Below, in pieces: positions 2,447 through 26,297 of a stretch of DNA of 27,783 bases; within the stretch, counting starts at the first letter, position 1; every line of letters starts with the position of its first letter. The notes beneath the pieces are model-generated. The model searched no databases. It was given only the letters and a program-made list of their open reading frames with translations, and was not told the origin of the DNA. The stretch comes from a virus: IMG/VR virus record IMGVR_UViG_3300032087_005396, positions 1 through 27,783 of that record, one strand, 5' to 3'. The translations under genes and the position numbers were made by a program.

Positions 2447-4305
2447 CACAAGCTAGAAAAGATTTCGACAAGCTGTCTAATTCGCTCAAATTAAACAATA
2501 TTGCATTGGCGTCAATTCCTGCACTAATGGGCGCGGTCGTAGCTAGTCAAACCCAAATGATAGCCACAACCGCGAAGCTAGCCAAGCAGGTTAATATTTC
2601 AACCGAAAGCCTAACTGCTCTAACATACGCATTCACTCGTGACGGAACAATCAGTTCTGAAAACTTCACTGATGCAATGGAAGAATTGCAGATAAAGATG
2701 GGCGAGGCGGCGATAACCGGCAAGGGTATGCTTGTCGATGCTTTGAAAGAGTTCGGAATAACAATAAAAGACATTAGGACACTAGAGCCTGATGAAATCA
2801 TTTTCAAACTTTCTGATGCAATCCAAAACCTTGGTGATCGAACAAAAGGAATCCACCTTCTTGATGAAATATTTGGAGGCGAAGGTGCCAAGTTCATCAC
2901 GACAATGGACCGAGGTTCCGAAGCTATCAAAAAGCTTGGCGACGAAGGTCGAAAGCTTGGGGTTGTTTATTCTGACGAGGAAGCTAAAAAGGTAGTAGAG
3001 TTCAAAAAGTCTTTTGATAAGGTGGCCGACTCACTAGTAGGGCTTGGGAATGATATAACTATTTTTGTGGCTGGGCCAGGAAAAGCCCTGTTAGATTGGG
3101 TGGGCGAACTTCTTGAAGATTCAAAAGGCATGGCCAAGACTTTCGGTAAGTCGGTCGGATTCATGTTTTCAGGCGTTGATATAGGGACTGAAACTGGAAG
3201 TTATGACCAACTTTTGCAAATGGCTTCAGACCAAAGAGAATGGGTAAACCTTTTAGATAGGGCTTTGAATAACCTTAGGAAAAGCGGTAGGGCCACAAAT
3301 GAGCAGATTAGAGACACTGAAGCAAAACTAGCCGCAGCAACAGATACTCTTGATCGATATTATTCTACTTTGAGAAGCATGAGAGAAACCGGCGCTACAA
3401 GCGTTACAAAAGCCGGTGAGGGGCCATTAATAAATGTTGGTTCTGGTCAACCTCAAGAAAAAATGAAACTCCCCATATTCGACCTTGAAAATGTTGACGA
3501 GCTAAAGGACTGGCTGAGCCTCGTGGGCGAAGGTCGAAAGGAAATAGCTAACCAAGAACAAAGCGAGATACAAAAAAGGTATAACGCAGAGTTAGCAATG
3601 GCACAAGCGGCCTATGAAGAACGAAAAATAATACAAGACCAGGAACGAGAAGATAACAAGCAGCGAGCCGCAGAGTGGGCGGCAGTTTGGGAAAGTGCTA
3701 CAAATAGTTTTAGCCAAGGGATAGGAGATGCCTTCGCCACTGCAATAGTAGATCAAGAAAGCCTTGGCAAAGGGCTTCAATCCGTTATGCGTTCTGTGAC
3801 AAAAGAGGTTATTTCAAGCCTTATAAAAATAGGCGTACAGCAGGCAATACAAGCGGCACTCGGAAAAGGTCAGTTAGCAGCAAGTACAGCGGCGGGAATT
3901 GGTAGCGCGGCAGCACTTACAGCCGCGTATGGGCCAGCGGCATTGGCCGCTAACATCGCCACGCTTGGTGGCGCAGCCTTGGCCGCAGCAGCATCGGCAC
4001 CCACGGCAGCCGCAGCACATATAGCCGCAATGAAAGGTGCGGGGGTGTTGGGCCAGGCTCACGATGGCCTTGATTACGTGCCTCAAACCGGAACGTATTT
4101 GTTAGAAAAGGGCGAGCGCGTAGTAAAGAAAGAAGATAATAAGTCAATGATGTCCGGCGGCATGGGTAACTCATATAATTTCACAATACAAGCAATGGAC
4201 ACGCAAACAGGTGTCGATTTTCTAATGAAAAATGAAAACGCAATTGTGTCAATGATACAAGATAAATACGATTCACGAGGTGAAAAAGGCGGGCCAATGC
4301 GATGA
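2389..4305 (+). CDS. Tail tape measure protein
   Basis: 638 residues. It starts at TTG with a GAGG ribosome site 8 nt upstream, inside the end of the GT frame. The N-terminal third (residues about 5-200) is helical, with the segment NISTESLTALTYAFTRDG and 'IHLLDEIFGGEGAKFI' found in phage tape-measure proteins. A hydrophobic helix lies near 37-55, and a long Ala/Gly-rich hydrophobic stretch near 485-550 is typical of the membrane-inserting region. The C-terminus (AHDGLDYVP..TGTYLLEKGERVV) resembles lambda-type tape-measure ends. It sets tail length and enters the cell envelope on infection. At about 0.15 nm per residue the tail would be near 95 nm (inference). The stop overlaps the next ATG (ATGA). 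Confidence 0.92.
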   Translation: MAGNARIRITAENRTKAAVTQARKDFDKLSNSLKLNNIALASIPALMGAVVASQTQMIATTAKLAKQVNISTESLTALTYAFTRDGTISSENFTDAMEELQIKMGEAAITGKGMLVDALKEFGITIKDIRTLEPDEIIFKLSDAIQNLGDRTKGIHLLDEIFGGEGAKFITTMDRGSEAIKKLGDEGRKLGVVYSDEEAKKVVEFKKSFDKVADSLVGLGNDITIFVAGPGKALLDWVGELLEDSKGMAKTFGKSVGFMFSGVDIGTETGSYDQLLQMASDQREWVNLLDRALNNLRKSGRATNEQIRDTEAKLAAATDTLDRYYSTLRSMRETGATSVTKAGEGPLINVGSGQPQEKMKLPIFDLENVDELKDWLSLVGEGRKEIANQEQSEIQKRYNAELAMAQAAYEERKIIQDQEREDNKQRAAEWAAVWESATNSFSQGIGDAFATAIVDQESLGKGLQSVMRSVTKEVISSLIKIGVQQAIQAALGKGQLAASTAAGIGSAAALTAAYGPAALAANIATLGGAALAAAASAPTAAAAHIAAMKGAGVLGQAHDGLDYVPQTGTYLLEKGERVVKKEDNKSMMSGGMGNSYNFTIQAMDTQTGVDFLMKNENAIVSMIQDKYDSRGEKGGPMR

Positions 4306-20810: not shown

Positions 20811-21026
20811 ATGATCGATTCAAACATCAAAGCAGCGGACTTGGCGCCGCTACAACTAGTAAGGAAAAAAGTAACTAAGGCCATGGTGCTAGATGTTGAG
20901 GTGGTAGAACTGATTGATGCCCTAGCAGAAAAAAATAGCACATCATTTAGCAAAATTGCACGGCACTTGCTCATTGAAGGTATTAAATCGTTAAGGGAGG
21001 GCGCCAGTGATGACGCCAAAGAGTAA
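20811..21026 (+). CDS. Ribbon-helix-helix regulator
   Basis: 71 residues; GAGG 7 nt before ATG. After about 20 N-terminal residues the RHH pattern appears: strand TKAMVLD, helix VEVVELIDALAEKN, turn, helix SFSKIARHLLIEGIKSL. Likely dimeric DNA-binding protein. It is divergent from the replication operon with only 45 bp between start codons, the classic position for a regulator of both. Its 3' end overlaps the HNH gene start by 17 nt. Confidence 0.75.
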   Translation: MIDSNIKAADLAPLQLVRKKVTKAMVLDVEVVELIDALAEKNSTSFSKIARHLLIEGIKSLREGASDDAKE

Positions 21027-21519
21027 GATCTGCACGAAGTGTGATATTGAGAAGCCATTAGAGGAATTTAGTAGACAAAAAGGCGGTAAGTTTGGTCGGC
21101 GGGCACACTGCAAGGTTTGTATGGCCGAATATCGTGAGGCAAACCGTGAGCAGAGACGCCAATATAAAAAAGCAAACCGTGAACGGTTACTTGAGCAGAA
21201 ACGCCGGTATTATGAAGCAAACCGTGAACGAATATCAGAGCAGAAACGCCGGTATTATGAAGCAAACCCCGAAAAATTTGCGGCAAACTGGGCAAAAAGA
21301 AGGGCGGCAAAAATAAACAGAACGCCAGCTTGGGCCGATCTTGATCATATACAGCAATTTTACGAAGCCAGGAAAGCAATATCAGACGCAACTGGGAGAG
21401 ATTACCACGTAGACCATGAGATACCGCTGCAAGGGAAAACGGTAAGTGGGCTACACGTGCCCAGTAATTTACAGATTATCCCGGCAGAGCGCAATTTATC
21501 AAAAAACAACACTTTCTAA
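21010..21519 (+). CDS. HNH endonuclease with zinc ribbon and 15-residue repeats
   Basis: 169 residues from ATG 21010 (GGAGG 9 nt upstream; a GTG at 21007 is in frame). The N-terminal zinc ribbon has C-x2-C (CTKC) and a second C-x2-C (CKVC) 22 residues later. A linker helix is built of 15-residue repeats (EQKRRYYEANRERIS). The C-terminal HNH core is YHVDHEIPLQGK...VPSNLQIIPAERNLSKNN, with DH, N and a final N/H-type pattern. Similar free-standing HNH enzymes are common in phages as homing-type or intron-less nucleases. It sits between the RHH gene and the primase in the same direction and ends 20 nt before a terminator hairpin. Confidence 0.88.
   Translation: MTPKSKICTKCDIEKPLEEFSRQKGGKFGRRAHCKVCMAEYREANREQRRQYKKANRERLLEQKRRYYEANRERISEQKRRYYEANPEKFAANWAKRRAAKINRTPAWADLDHIQQFYEARKAISDATGRDYHVDHEIPLQGKTVSGLHVPSNLQIIPAERNLSKNNTF
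21148..21282 (+). repeat. Tandem 45-bp in-frame repeats within HNH gene
   Basis: Three 45-bp units (21148-21192, 21193-21237, 21238-21282) encode E-Q-x-R-x-Y-x-x-A-N-x-E-x-x-x. Units 2 and 3 share 31 identical bases at their start (21193-21223 and 21238-21268). The copy number can probably change by slippage without altering the frame, lengthening or shortening the helical linker. Confidence 0.85.
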
Positions 21520-21609: not shown

Positions 21610-23832
21610 ATGCGTATATCAAACAGACAATTTTTACAAGCAATATTTGGTGACGAATGGAGCACAGCACACGTCACTTCTTTTTTCGATGACCCGGGTG
21701 CCATAGATCAGGATCGGCGGGGTATTTGCTGGGCCGGGGGCGAAGCCGGGAGCTGGATACCTGAAAATGGTGAAAATCAGTACTTCACTATATCGCTGTT
21801 CCACAAAGACGGTGGCCGAGCTAATCGCAGAAAGACAAACTTTAAACAGTGTCATGTGATCGTCGCCGATGATGTAAAGGAAAAGCTACCAATAGAGCGA
21901 GTGGAGATGTTGCCAGAGCCCTCGTACAAGCTTTTGACATCGGCGGGCAGTGAACAATGGGGCTGGATACTGAAAACGCCTTGTAGCGAACGTGGTGTGG
22001 TTGAAGCGCTTTTGGATGGGTTAGTTGCAAAAGGTTTGGCGCCTGACGGGACAGACCCAGGAATGCGTGGCGTGACTCGCTATGTCAGATTGCCAGAGGG
22101 TACGAATACCAAAGCCAGTCGTAACAATTTTAAGTGTCAGATGTTGAGCTGGAAGCCAGAACTTAAGTACACGATGGACGGCTTGGCGAAAGTTTTTGAT
22201 ATAGACCTCACGCCAAAAGAAGAGAAACAGGTGGAGGCGGTAACCATGCCAGACCACCCAATCTGGGCGGCGGTGACTGTGACGGGGTACGGCGCTGACG
22301 GTTGGGTGCGGATAGATTGCCCGAACGCAGCCGCGCACAGTTCAGCAGATGCCAGCGGGGCAGCGGTTCGCACTTTAGTTGATGGGTCTGTGCAGTTTAA
22401 ATGCAACCATGGCCACTGTTCGAAGTTAAACGGTGCAAAAATTGTTAATAAACTGGGGATAACTGACGAGGTTGACCAGTATCAGCTTAGAGTTGCCAGA
22501 GCGGGGGCGGAAGCCTTAGCGGATAAACTCGGGCTTAGCGGGGGTGTGGGTGAACCGGAGGTGCAGAAAAAAGTGATCGATCCAAAAAGGTACATATTTA
22601 TCGCAGAAAAGAACAAATTCTGGGACTGTAAAACGCGTCAACTCATCACGCCAGTAGGAATTGACAACCGCTATTTGTCAGTGTATCCGAGGAAAAAAGG
22701 TAAAGGGGCGTCTGAGATGTTGTTACAAGGTTGCGGGTTGGATGATGAGGCGGATGGTATGTGTTGGGAGCCTACCGGATGGACTCGCCCAGGACGTGAT
22801 GAGGTGCTGGTACGTGTTGAGGGCCGCACACTTATTAACGAGTGGTCCGGTTTTAACGTAGCGCCCAATTTAGACTTGCCAGAACCCGACTTATGGCTTG
22901 AACATGCTGAGTACCTTTTGCCAGATGCGCGGGAACGTGAAGTGGTTTTGGACTATTTAGCGTGCATTGTCCAACGGATAGATGTTAAGCCGGATTATTG
23001 GTTAGTTCATCGTGGCGGCTTTGGTGTTGGTAAAGATTTATTTTATTCGGCTGTTATGTTTGGGCTTGGTGATGATATCGCTCGAACTATACACATTGAT
23101 AAGCTGTTAGATGGTTGGGGGGACTACATACGAGGGTTGAAGTTCGCCGCTGTAGAAGAGGTGGACAAGGCCCAAGATAAGAGAGTTGCCAACGCAATGA
23201 AAGTGATCTGTGCCTCTGGCGCTTCCAAATACCGCACGCTGAATTTAAAGGGCGGGGCGGTTGTAAGGCAGCGGGATTGCCTCGGTGGGGTTTTGATGTC
23301 AAATAAGCGCCACTGCTTAGCTGTTGAGGAGGGTGATCGTCGTTACTTTGTCGTTGATTCTTATATTGAGCCAAAGAGCGAAGATTACTATCAAAAACTG
23401 GCCGAATGGTACCGCCAGGGTGGCTATGAACAAGTGATGGGGTATCTTGGGAGACGTGACATAAGCAATTTTAACCCTCACAAGCTGCCATTCCGTACTG
23501 ATGGGCTAGAAGATTTGGTACGAGGTGGAAAATTCGACTATGAAAAGAACATGGACGAAATGGCGGCAGATCGTAGCGGGCTATTTTCGCGTGATTGGTT
23601 TAGCAAGATGGAACTACGGACCTTTGCCAAACAGTGCCAATGGAAGTGTGGTGTTAATGGGCTCGAAGAAGCTGTTCAGAATGTAGGCTATGTGTTTGTC
23701 GAAGTACAGAAGAAAATTGATGGAAAAAAGAACAAACTTGGCCGGTTTTGGGTTCGCCAAGAGGTGGCAAAAGATCGATCAGTTTCTGAGTTGTATGATG
23801 TTATGATCGAAAAAATGGGGTCTAAAAAATAG
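21610..23832 (+). CDS. RepB-type primase / SF3 helicase (DUF5906-like)
   Basis: 740 residues; GGAG 6 nt before ATG. Residues 35-200 match RepB-like archaeo-eukaryotic primases (YFTISLFHKDGGRANRRKTN, HVIVADDVKEK, PSYKLLTSAGSEQWGWIL, DPGMRGVTRYVRLPEGTN). A possible zinc site follows (C237, H243, C265, C270). The C-terminal part is an SF3/DUF5906-type helicase: Walker A HRGGFGVGKD (467-476), Walker B FAAVEEVDK (512-520), LMSNKRHCLAVEEGDRRYF (562-580) with the sensor Asn and Arg finger. It primes and unwinds at the origin, like the P4 alpha protein. A repeat-rich noncoding region follows directly, a candidate origin. Confidence 0.93.
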   Translation: MRISNRQFLQAIFGDEWSTAHVTSFFDDPGAIDQDRRGICWAGGEAGSWIPENGENQYFTISLFHKDGGRANRRKTNFKQCHVIVADDVKEKLPIERVEMLPEPSYKLLTSAGSEQWGWILKTPCSERGVVEALLDGLVAKGLAPDGTDPGMRGVTRYVRLPEGTNTKASRNNFKCQMLSWKPELKYTMDGLAKVFDIDLTPKEEKQVEAVTMPDHPIWAAVTVTGYGADGWVRIDCPNAAAHSSADASGAAVRTLVDGSVQFKCNHGHCSKLNGAKIVNKLGITDEVDQYQLRVARAGAEALADKLGLSGGVGEPEVQKKVIDPKRYIFIAEKNKFWDCKTRQLITPVGIDNRYLSVYPRKKGKGASEMLLQGCGLDDEADGMCWEPTGWTRPGRDEVLVRVEGRTLINEWSGFNVAPNLDLPEPDLWLEHAEYLLPDAREREVVLDYLACIVQRIDVKPDYWLVHRGGFGVGKDLFYSAVMFGLGDDIARTIHIDKLLDGWGDYIRGLKFAAVEEVDKAQDKRVANAMKVICASGASKYRTLNLKGGAVVRQRDCLGGVLMSNKRHCLAVEEGDRRYFVVDSYIEPKSEDYYQKLAEWYRQGGYEQVMGYLGRRDISNFNPHKLPFRTDGLEDLVRGGKFDYEKNMDEMAADRSGLFSRDWFSKMELRTFAKQCQWKCGVNGLEEAVQNVGYVFVEVQKKIDGKKNKLGRFWVRQEVAKDRSVSELYDVMIEKMGSKK

Positions 23833-24120
23833 CTGGGTATTTAGGGTACTGGGTACTTTTCGGTACCCGGTACCTAGTTGGTACCTAGAAAATTTTTTAA
23901 GTTTTTGGTACCGAAAAGTCCCTTGCCATGGGGGCTGTAGACGAAAGTACCCTAGTACCCTGGTTTTTTGGCAAAAAGTAGATTGGTGATATATAAACGT
24001 AAAATAGTACGTTTGGCAACCAAAACGTATAGAAAACGTACAGGGTGGCTATAGTAACGAGAGCTATGGAAAATGGTCAGGGTACCGGGGTACTAGGGTA
24101 CCGGCCTCTGGCGCACTGTG
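23833..24120. repeat. GGTACC/GTAC repeat cluster, candidate replication origin
   Basis: No plausible gene. Within 23843-24104 there are 13 GTAC tetramers, six of them GGTACC (23862, 23869, 23880, 23907, 24081, 24097). A 13-bp perfect inverted repeat ACTTTTCGGTACC (23855-23867) / GGTACCGAAAAGT (23907-23919) encloses a direct repeat GGTACCTAG (23869-23877 and 23880-23888) and an A/T-rich stretch. Flanking direct repeats: AGGGTACT/GGGTACT (23843-23857) on the left, and AGTACCCT twice (23946-23961), their inverse, on the right. A second cluster, AGGGTACCGG twice with GGGGTACT between, lies at 24079-24104. Position directly after a P4 alpha-like primase-helicase gene fits an iteron-type origin; an operator array is the alternative. 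Confidence 0.65.
23995..24042. repeat. AAACGTA repeats
   Basis: AAACGTA occurs at 23995-24001, inverted as TACGTTT at 24008-24014, and again at 24023-24029 and 24034-24040. The middle two form an imperfect hairpin (TACGTTTGG / CCAAAACGTA). They sit between the two GGTACC clusters and could be a second set of binding sites in the same control region. Confidence 0.5.
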
Positions 24121-24207: not shown

Positions 24208-24310
24208 AGGCTTTCGACGGCCTGAATACAAAGTTGAAAAAGCTCAATCCTTGCGTATGTAACCTAACTTTGTGGGTAACGTCGAAACTACGCGAGGGTT
24301 GAGCTTTTTT
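24208..24310 (+). promoter_or_regulatory. Structured leader RNA / attenuator, copy 1
   Basis: Two alternative folds. Terminator: 21-bp stem 24237-24257 / 24289-24309 (two G-U pairs) ending in a U run, loop of 31 nt with a small ACC/GGT pairing. Competing fold: TTTCGACG (24212-24219) with CGTCGAAA (24280-24287) enclosing ACAAAGTT (24228-24235) with AACTTTGT (24266-24273). The latter helix pairs upstream sequence with the terminator loop, so the two cross and, with linkers of one base, cannot fully coexist. AGGTGA and the ATG of 24327 follow within 17 nt. The same architecture recurs at 25381 with compensatory changes. This is cis-acting control of the downstream gene; effector unknown. Confidence 0.8.
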
Positions 24311-24326
24311 ATTAGGTGAATGAGAT

Positions 24327-24539
24327 ATGAGTTTTGTTGGTAAAGTTTGTAAAGATTGCGGAGTCAAAAAACCTTTAGCTGATTTTGAATCAACTCACAA
24401 TCGTACAGGTAAGTACGCTTGTGTACCTCGATGTAAGCCGTGCAATAGCGAACACCGTAAACAGTACCGTATTCGTAAACGGGAGCAAGACAAGGCCGAA
24501 TTGGCAAAGCAGCCCATAGCTATAATTTTTCCACATTAG
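24327..24539 (+). CDS. Solo zinc-ribbon protein under leader copy 1
   Basis: 70 residues; AGGTGA about 8 nt before ATG. C-x2-C (CKDC) near residues 8-11 and CKPC near 36-39 flank KKPLADFESTHNRTGKYACV, followed by a basic helix (NSEHRKQYRIRKREQDK). This closely resembles the zinc-ribbon N-terminus of the HNH enzyme at 21010 (KPLEEF...CKVC...EYRE), but no HNH core follows and a terminator comes directly after. It may be a DNA/RNA-binding adaptor or the remnant of an HNH gene. The gene, its leader and its terminator (24208-24589) form a self-contained unit. Confidence 0.75.
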   Translation: MSFVGKVCKDCGVKKPLADFESTHNRTGKYACVPRCKPCNSEHRKQYRIRKREQDKAELAKQPIAIIFPH

Positions 24540-25078: not shown

Positions 25079-25380
25079 GAGCTTCTGTATTGCGCTGTGA
25101 GACGTTTTGGAGGTGATTTAGGGTCAATGTATAGGGTAGGGGTTCTGAGAGGGCTTAGAGAGCGTTTTAATAATACCCGCCGAGGCTCTTGGTGTCGTAA
25201 ACATTTACGGTCACATAATGCTCAAACTGGCGGGTTATTTTTTAACTAGTAAGTATTCCTTAGTGGTTGCGGTTTGTGCTATGATTGGTTTATCCCTTCA
25301 TAGGGTGGGTTCGAAATAAGGCACCTTCTTCTGCTTCGTCCGCCAAAACTAATCAGAGTTGGTGCCAGCTCTTTGTAACT
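25079..25380. other. Noncoding region with structured terminator and inverted repeats
   Basis: No convincing gene. A long-loop terminator-like structure lies at 25175-25243 (separate entry). A small hairpin CCCTtcatAGGG lies near 25293-25304. GGCACC (25319-25324) and GGTGCC (25361-25366) are an inverted pair just before leader copy 2. The remainder shows nothing I can interpret; a promoter for leader copy 2 is expected here but not clear. Confidence 0.5.
25175..25243 (+). terminator. Terminator with structured loop
   Basis: ACCCGCC (25175-25181) pairs with GGCGGGT (25229-25235), extended by A/T pairs, and is followed by a six-T run (25238-25243). The 47-nt loop holds a second hairpin: CGTAAA (25196-25201) / TTTACG (25204-25209) extended by GTG/CAC. 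It follows the gene ending at 25078 by nearly 100 nt. It may simply end that operon, but the large structured loop resembles an attenuator or small-RNA 3' end. Confidence 0.65.
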
Positions 25381-25480
25381 AGGCTTTCGACGGCCTAATC
25401 GCAAGTTGAAAAAGCTCAACCTTTGTACTGGTAGCCTATTTGCGGGCAACGTCGAAACAGTACGAGGGTTGAGCTTTTTT
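25381..25480 (+). promoter_or_regulatory. Structured leader RNA / attenuator, copy 2
   Basis: Same architecture as at 24208. Terminator: 22-bp stem 25409-25430 / 25458-25479, then a T run. Competing fold: TTTCGACG (25385-25392) with CGTCGAAA (25450-25457), enclosing a helix 25399-25406 / 25438-25445. Against copy 1, pairs change compensatorily: C-G, G-C, T-A, A-T in the terminator stem become T-A, A-T, C-G, T-A, and A-T, C-G, A-T in the inner alternative helix become C-G, G-C, C-G; the loop pair A-T becomes G-C. The TTTCGACG/CGTCGAAA strands are invariant. GGGTGA and the Rha ATG (25497) follow directly. Confidence 0.8.
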
Positions 25481-25496
25481 ATTGGGTGATTGAAAT

Positions 25497-26297
25497 ATGA
25501 ACGATTTGGTAATAGTGGAAGGTGAGCAATTAACAACCAATTCTATTTTAATAGCTGATGGCGTTGGGGTTCAGCATAAAAATGTTATTGCCTTGATACG
25601 TGATAATTTAGGGGATTTAGAAGAGTTTGGAGAAGTCGCGTTTGAAACGCGACTTAACTCGCAAGGTACGGCTACAGAATATGCAATACTTAATGAGCAA
25701 CAAGCGACCATCATAATTACGTATATGCGGAACACGGCAACAGTAAGAAAGTTTAAAAAGCTGCTAGTTAAACAGTTTTACGAAATGCGGGAAGCCCTAA
25801 AGAATTTACCCGACCCGCACGCGGCTATGATGGAGCGACTAGAGCTGGCAAGAACAGTGCCACGTGGTTACTTTTGTGTGTTTTATCAAAGCGTCGATGT
25901 TCAATACACACTGGCTAAACATATAAACTATGGGAAAGAATTAATACCTGACATTTCTATCGGCTGGCACTGGTCAGACTACATCACAAAACAGAAGCAA
26001 AATATAAAAAATAGTCGTATCAGGTGGGTCGATTTTAAATACCCGAAATCTTGGAACATGTTTGTGCCTTATGTTTGGGTTTATAACAATTCTTTTATGG
26101 GGGATTTTGACGACTGGTTCAGGGGTTTTTATCTACCGGAAAAATTCCCTAGCTATATAAAGGGGTGTGTTCAAAAAGGGAAATTACCTGCAAAAACAGT
26201 ATTAAAATTAATTAATGACATGGTTGAATTGGGTCAGTTGCCAAAAGATTCAATTTTAAAATGTTTACCTAAAAAAGAATTAAAATTATTAAAATAA
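25497..26297 (+). CDS. Rha-family phage regulatory protein with unknown C-terminal domain
   Basis: 266 residues; GGGTGA about 8 nt before ATG. Residues 1-100 match the Rha domain (SILIADGVGVQHKNVIALIR, EFGEVAFETR, YAILNEQQATIIITYMRNT, FKKLLVKQFYEMREAL). Rha proteins are temperate-phage regulatory proteins, often acting as moron-like genes that affect host range or immunity. The C-terminal 150 residues are unlike the usual Ant/KilA-C partners: aromatic-rich (WHWSDYITKQ, WVDFKYPKSWNMFVPYVWVY, DDWFRGFYLP) with a Lys-rich end. Codon use is AT-rich towards the end. It is enclosed by its own leader and a terminator at 26304. Confidence 0.85.
   Translation: MNDLVIVEGEQLTTNSILIADGVGVQHKNVIALIRDNLGDLEEFGEVAFETRLNSQGTATEYAILNEQQATIIITYMRNTATVRKFKKLLVKQFYEMREALKNLPDPHAAMMERLELARTVPRGYFCVFYQSVDVQYTLAKHINYGKELIPDISIGWHWSDYITKQKQNIKNSRIRWVDFKYPKSWNMFVPYVWVYNNSFMGDFDDWFRGFYLPEKFPSYIKGCVQKGKLPAKTVLKLINDMVELGQLPKDSILKCLPKKELKLLK

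Follow-up and report, generated by a model that had tools for sequence, protein, structure and literature searches.

An array of short repeated words at positions 23843-24104, directly behind the gene of a primase-helicase, is very probably a phage replication origin that follows the plan of SaPI/PICI origins and would be recognised by the adjacent enzyme. The window, i.e. the whole stretch of DNA that was analysed, corresponds to an entire IMG/VR virus record (27,783 bases), which probably represents only part of a larger tailed-phage genome. The window has every feature of the SaPI/PICI plan that can be read from a sequence and therefore, the array is taken as the putative origin bound by the adjacent enzyme. 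This origin plan has been reported as unique to PICIs, and its apparent presence on tailed phages, in the form of candidate origins, would be new. A search of open-access papers yielded no earlier description of such arrays in tailed phages.

The array starts 11 bp past the primase stop codon and hence, as stated in the earlier note, immediately after a primase and SF3 helicase gene. Thirteen GTAC tetramers were recounted (at 23846, 23853, 23863, 23870, 23881, 23908, 23947, 23955, 24007, 24038, 24082, 24090 and 24098), six of them as GGTACC. Both numbers agree with the earlier note, which had expected about one GTAC by chance in approx. 260 bp; the window average predicts 0.78. Local dinucleotide shuffles (n = 2000) contained 2.8 GTAC on average and never more than 8, compared to the 13 observed, and in whole-window shuffles (n = 200) the richest 256-bp stretch contained at most 7. 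A blastn search of the array against phages and plasmids gave no match.

The left iteron set at 23844-23961 comprises eight GTAC-core units (23846-23955), and the right set at 24079-24104 consists of three direct units GGGTACCGGGGTACTAGGGTACC; no strand is assigned to these or the following features. The sets are separated by an AT-rich spacer of approx. 117 bp (23962-24078) with two isolated GTACs at 24007 and 24038 and an AT content of 68-70% across 23960-24039. Within the left set, a 13-bp perfect inverted repeat is present as previously claimed, with its arms at 23855-23867 and 23907-23919. Between two GGTACC units lies an AT-rich tract (23886-23906; 70% AT across 23880-23919) that is a possible melting site. 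Longer, imperfect inverted pairs were found at 23852-23867/23907-23922 and 23947-23964/24084-24101. Read as RGGGTACY units, the order is two forward copies, reverse or palindromic copies, the AT tract with a GGTACC on either side, two reverse copies, the AT-rich spacer with the two isolated GTACs and finally three forward copies. The left-right symmetry around an AT-rich core, which the earlier note had described, is only approximate, with eight sites to the left and three to the right of a 60-70% AT stretch and two GTACs within it. An inflection of the GC skew, which had been suggested as a check, is absent: the skew did not change sign at the array in this 27.8-kb fragment, in which gene strand use confounds it.

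Conservation of the array in relatives had also been suggested as a check and was observed in L002, a 4.6-kb contig that was the only close relative found and whose primase is 98% identical to that of the window. L002 retained all 13 GTACs and every spacing with zero indels. The two arrays differ at 14 out of 262 positions, none of them inside a GTAC (hypergeometric P 0.04). The identity is 94.7% in the array versus 89.3% in the primase gene, where 190 out of 222 differences are located in third codon positions. Given the fact that the cores were kept while the flanking letters vary, and that L002 has AGTACC in place of two of the six GGTACC, the unit is RGGGTACY around a GTAC core. The six-base palindrome GGTACC, which the earlier note had regarded as the unit, was thereby ruled out.

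The initiator gene is located at 21610-23832 on the plus strand. Its product matched the PHROG 'DNA primase' (8e-17) but no Pfam family. It contains a predicted AEP primase domain (residues about 1-200), a Cys/His zinc-binding segment (about 237-270), an SF3 helicase with the Walker A motif GGFGVGKD (about 415-600) and a predicted C-terminal winged-helix-like domain (about 643-716). Profile comparison against the PDB yielded NrS-1 (4e-25) and SaPI5 PriRep1 (7pds, 8.5e-8). The AlphaFold2 model has a mean pLDDT of 75; the C-terminal domain was modelled with modest confidence (about 52-70) and displays a winged-helix-like order of elements. With Foldseek/VIA, the fold of residues 2-197 matched the AEP PrimPol of phage S-2L (Z 16.2) and RepB' (Z 11.6), while the helicase and C-terminal part were, among solved structures, most similar to the C-terminal region of the primase-polymerase of phage NrS-1 (Z 23.4 over 367 residues), in addition to the SaPI5 primase-helicase (7ola, Z 16.6) and SaPI5 PriRep1 on dsDNA (7pds, Z 13.8). 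According to this model, the protein is an AEP primase with an SF3 helicase that is closest in fold to NrS-1 polymerase and the SaPI5 primase-helicase. The enzyme had been described as P4 alpha-type. P4 alpha is likewise a primase with an SF3 helicase and an origin-binding winged helix on short repeats, a binding mode that may be shared by the window enzyme, but its primase is of the bacterial Toprim type (PMC4234260). Membership in the P4 alpha family was ruled out by the AEP match of residues 2-197, and the remainder resembles NrS-1 and SaPI5.

The left part of the window contains tail genes including a lambda-J-like tail fibre (central tail fibre J), followed by a leftward replication module with a family-A polymerase, a DUF2800 exonuclease and a DEAD helicase. 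The primase-helicase gene comes next, in rightward direction, with the array, small ORFs and the gene of a Rha-family regulator behind it. Just upstream of the primase, an ORF at 21007-21519 encodes repeated EANRE-type motifs and appears HNH endonuclease-like by eye. The protein encoded at 25497-26297 has a Rha regulator domain at its N-terminus, and its C-terminal part matched the BstA family of abortive-infection proteins (PHROG 6287, 3.5e-17). Downstream of the array, an element of approx. 120 nt occurs in two copies with 81% identity at 24208-24330 and 25381-25500. It comprises a long hairpin and possibly also a pseudoknot between TTTCGACGG and CGTCGAAA. Each copy lies directly upstream of an ORF, namely, a small Cys-rich ORF at 24327 and the Rha/BstA-like protein at 25497, and neither copy is present in L002. 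Within the window, the fold z-score was most extreme (-7.9) for 25351-25500. The single scan match to this element, L178, is located in GC-rich sequence, shows no visible hairpin similarity and is probably due to chance.

PICI origins are located immediately 3' of the initiator gene with two iteron sets around an AT-rich region; rep together with ori supported plasmid replication in E. coli, and the layout was described as not shared by any other known bacterial replicon (PMC6092414). The C-terminal domain of SaPI Rep recognises the downstream iterons, and that of Cch2 binds such repeats (PMC7581432). Like the origins of SaPIbov1, SaPI5 and EcCICFT073 (PMC6092414, PMC7581432), the window array is situated directly 3' of the initiator gene and its sites flank an AT-rich stretch, although in unequal sets. 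The SF3 helicase is homologous to SaPI5 PriRep1 (E 8.5e-8; fold Z 13.8-16.6). The array differs in its word and in its carrier, which is not a satellite but an ordinary tailed phage that has tail genes and a DNA polymerase of its own. A PICI, which relies on a helper phage for its capsid and tail, was ruled out for the window itself by the central tail fibre J among its tail genes and by the presence of a family-A polymerase, a helicase and an exonuclease.

Arrays recur at the same position behind other primase-helicase genes. The pattern GGGTACY..GGGTACY..RGTACCC was scanned over 2.9 million virus contigs and returned 62 stretches, the gene neighbours of which were compared by all-against-all BLASTP of ORFs with no prior assumptions. 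The largest shared neighbour family comprised 25 loci with a stop codon 1-15 nt from the GGGTAC array and consisted of primase-helicases in which an AAA_25 motor is combined with a primase domain of the Toprim or the PrimPol type. A second family (PrimPol and VapE, SF3) was found at five loci, where the gene ends 10-13 nt before the array. Besides the window pair, the primase-adjacent loci formed three nucleotide-similarity clusters, the largest of which joins Toprim and PrimPol enzymes. Among the 24 non-redundant scan clusters (window pair counted), only four had primase-adjacent arrays; the others were coding repeats (collagen-like ORFs) or had no explanation. As the scan searched for GGGTAC, the occurrence of this word with unrelated enzymes is not evidence of common descent. 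The finding is the shared position behind primase-helicase genes, not a shared word. Sequence profiles gave no link between the C-terminal domain of the window enzyme and those of AAA_25 or VapE enzymes. The model of one further enzyme (L128) was too poor for fold comparison (mean pLDDT 46); its C-terminus is winged-helix-like in element order.

Other words were found 3' of the primase-helicase in named phages that encode related enzymes, namely, GGTTCA in Alteromonas phages XX1924 and PB15, GGGACA in Salicola CGphi29 and isolate ct3Oc712, GGTACA in Idiomarinaceae 1N2-2 and AGGTTGTC in Yersinia YeP5. Seven further named phages were picked from hit lists before their DNA was inspected, and three of them had arrays (P 3e-4 against a control rate of 2%). 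Burkholderia AH2 carries 8 AGGTCC, four forward and then four reverse with an AT-rich core between them, while 9 AGGTGA and 7 TGGAAC are located behind the primase-helicase of Escherichia 683R1 and Flavobacterium lotta8-2, respectively. In a survey of 95 loci that took in the phages which had prompted it, 13% (12 loci) had at least 5 copies of one word past the stop codon compared to 2% of control stretches; the named-phage survey was small and partly hand-picked. In a comparison of 12 array-bearing loci, the array word occurs 6-13 times in the 260 nt past the stop codon versus 0-2 times in the 260 nt before the start codon; the analogous arrays are likewise not located at other places of these loci. 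Copies in the same orientation are common in these 3' arrays. Within the survey, most relatives of the window primase (about 31-36% identity) had no such array; L031 from the same primase family has an array of GGTAAG. No array was detected in isolates ct76p945 (L172) and ctLpZ231 (L175), Persinger, four Vibrio phages and BIP-1, and no GTAC clusters occur behind the Vibrio-phage relatives of the window primase.

A small core palindrome was observed in the arrays behind AAA_25 primase-helicases of L108, L118, L128, L119, L169 and L171. Its stem varies among relatives while self-complementarity is kept (CTCCCCTTTAGGGGAG / CTCTTCTTAAGAAGAG / GGCTCTCTAAAGAGAGCC / ACACACCTATATAGGTGTGT), which suggests selection on structure or two-fold symmetry. 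A 1052-aa gene of L168 that encodes a Toprim primase domain contains a dense in-frame GGGTACC array in its 3' part (3042-3318), perhaps an origin inside coding DNA. Dense GGGTAC arrays away from any recognised primase gene were seen in L131 (5835-6087), L110 (4237-4542) and L134 (1683-1989).

A structured noncoding RNA or 3' UTR element transcribed behind the primase, in which the GUAC palindromes would pair with each other, is an improbable explanation. The plus strand is predicted to fold far better than shuffled sequences (z -6.2 for the window, -7.5 for L002), and several changes between both sequences keep pairs: two U.G pairs of the first hairpin become U-A (23862 and 23869), and the double change T23953C/A24095G converts U-A into C-G. 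These substitutions, however, affect letters -1 and +5 of the RGGGTACY unit, which are degenerate, and with two sequences, window and L002, pairing and unit degeneracy are confounded. Inverted arrays of any word fold well, as the minus strand also does (z -5.1), and the strong predicted fold (z about -6 to -7.5) is probably a by-product of the inverted iterons. Rfam gave no match at the gathering threshold on either strand of the window, and permissive matches were at chance level only. The comparison with the other phages, where quite different words keep the position behind the initiator, favours DNA words. The RNA element was rejected, as the folds probably follow from inverted words and the layout recurs with unrelated words. 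Still less probable is an operator cluster for the control of early-region transcription, exerted by a phage regulator or by the initiator. Such a function would fit inverted short words that lie in a noncoding stretch flanked by transcribed genes, and the gene of the Rha-family regulator lies 1.4 kb downstream. Yet, the array comes after a stop codon and not before a start codon, and the gene common to array-bearing loci is the primase-helicase, not a regulator. Autoregulation of the initiator through the array would be compatible with an origin.

The origin could furthermore act as an extruded DNA stem-loop as in the crenarchaeal plasmid pRN1, with the GTAC words as mere stem sequence. Replication of pRN1 needs a region 3' of its AEP-SF3-winged-helix gene, which was reported to have no iterons and to require a 100-nt stem-loop; phage BIP-1 is said to have a similar one (PMC4234260). 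The window resembles pRN1 in the domain order of ORF904 (AEP primase, SF3 helicase and C-terminal winged helix, predicted in the window), in the position of the array in a noncoding stretch right behind the gene and in its strong inverted repeats. The latter are long in the window, and L002 has a 13-bp perfect hairpin. Repeated words dominate the window array, unlike pRN1, and BIP-1 has no word array. As DNA, the first hairpin of the window contains two G-T mismatches while every GTAC core is intact, and the direct copies common in phage arrays are contrary to a mere stem. Such a mode of action is considered unlikely.

The interpretation of the array as an origin recognised by the adjacent primase-helicase, already proposed in the earlier note, gained comparative support from the array kept in L002 and the analogous 3' arrays elsewhere. 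The evidence in hand comprises the array, its conservation and position, the recurrent 3' arrays and the homology of the enzyme to SaPI5/NrS-1. Counting against it are the mostly arrayless primase relatives with approx. 31-36% identity, the missing turn of the GC skew, the unequal sets (8 versus 3), the modest model confidence of the C-terminal domain and its lack of a profile link to the AAA_25 and VapE enzymes. Binding, melting, ring assembly and origin activity are inferred. The primase-helicase would bind the RGGGTACY units directly 3' of its own gene, most likely through the C-terminal winged-helix-like domain. The inverted site sets may assemble two facing helicase rings and the AT-rich stretches would melt. 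The SF3 motor would then unwind the DNA and the AEP domain would provide the family-A polymerase of the phage with its first primers.

More tentatively, tailed phages in general may share an origin cassette in which the gene of a self-loading primase-helicase, whose small C-terminal domain binds DNA, is directly followed by inverted copies of the word which this domain reads. Such a plan would be independent of the helicase superfamily (SF3 or the RecA-like AAA_25) and of the primase type (AEP or Toprim), and the word would change fast between relatives, so that origin identity would be an exchangeable module. If so, an origin plan considered to be confined to PICIs would apply to phages in general.

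For the majority of phages, the replication origin has yet to be located. Should the 3' arrays behind primase-helicase genes be origins, a search for inverted short words right past the stop codon would identify origin and initiator together in many phages, with the sequence as the only input. Moreover, this would provide paired protein and word data on how the C-terminal domain reads DNA and would correct the published claim of a layout confined to PICIs. It would also suggest how satellites could share or compete for the initiators of their helpers.
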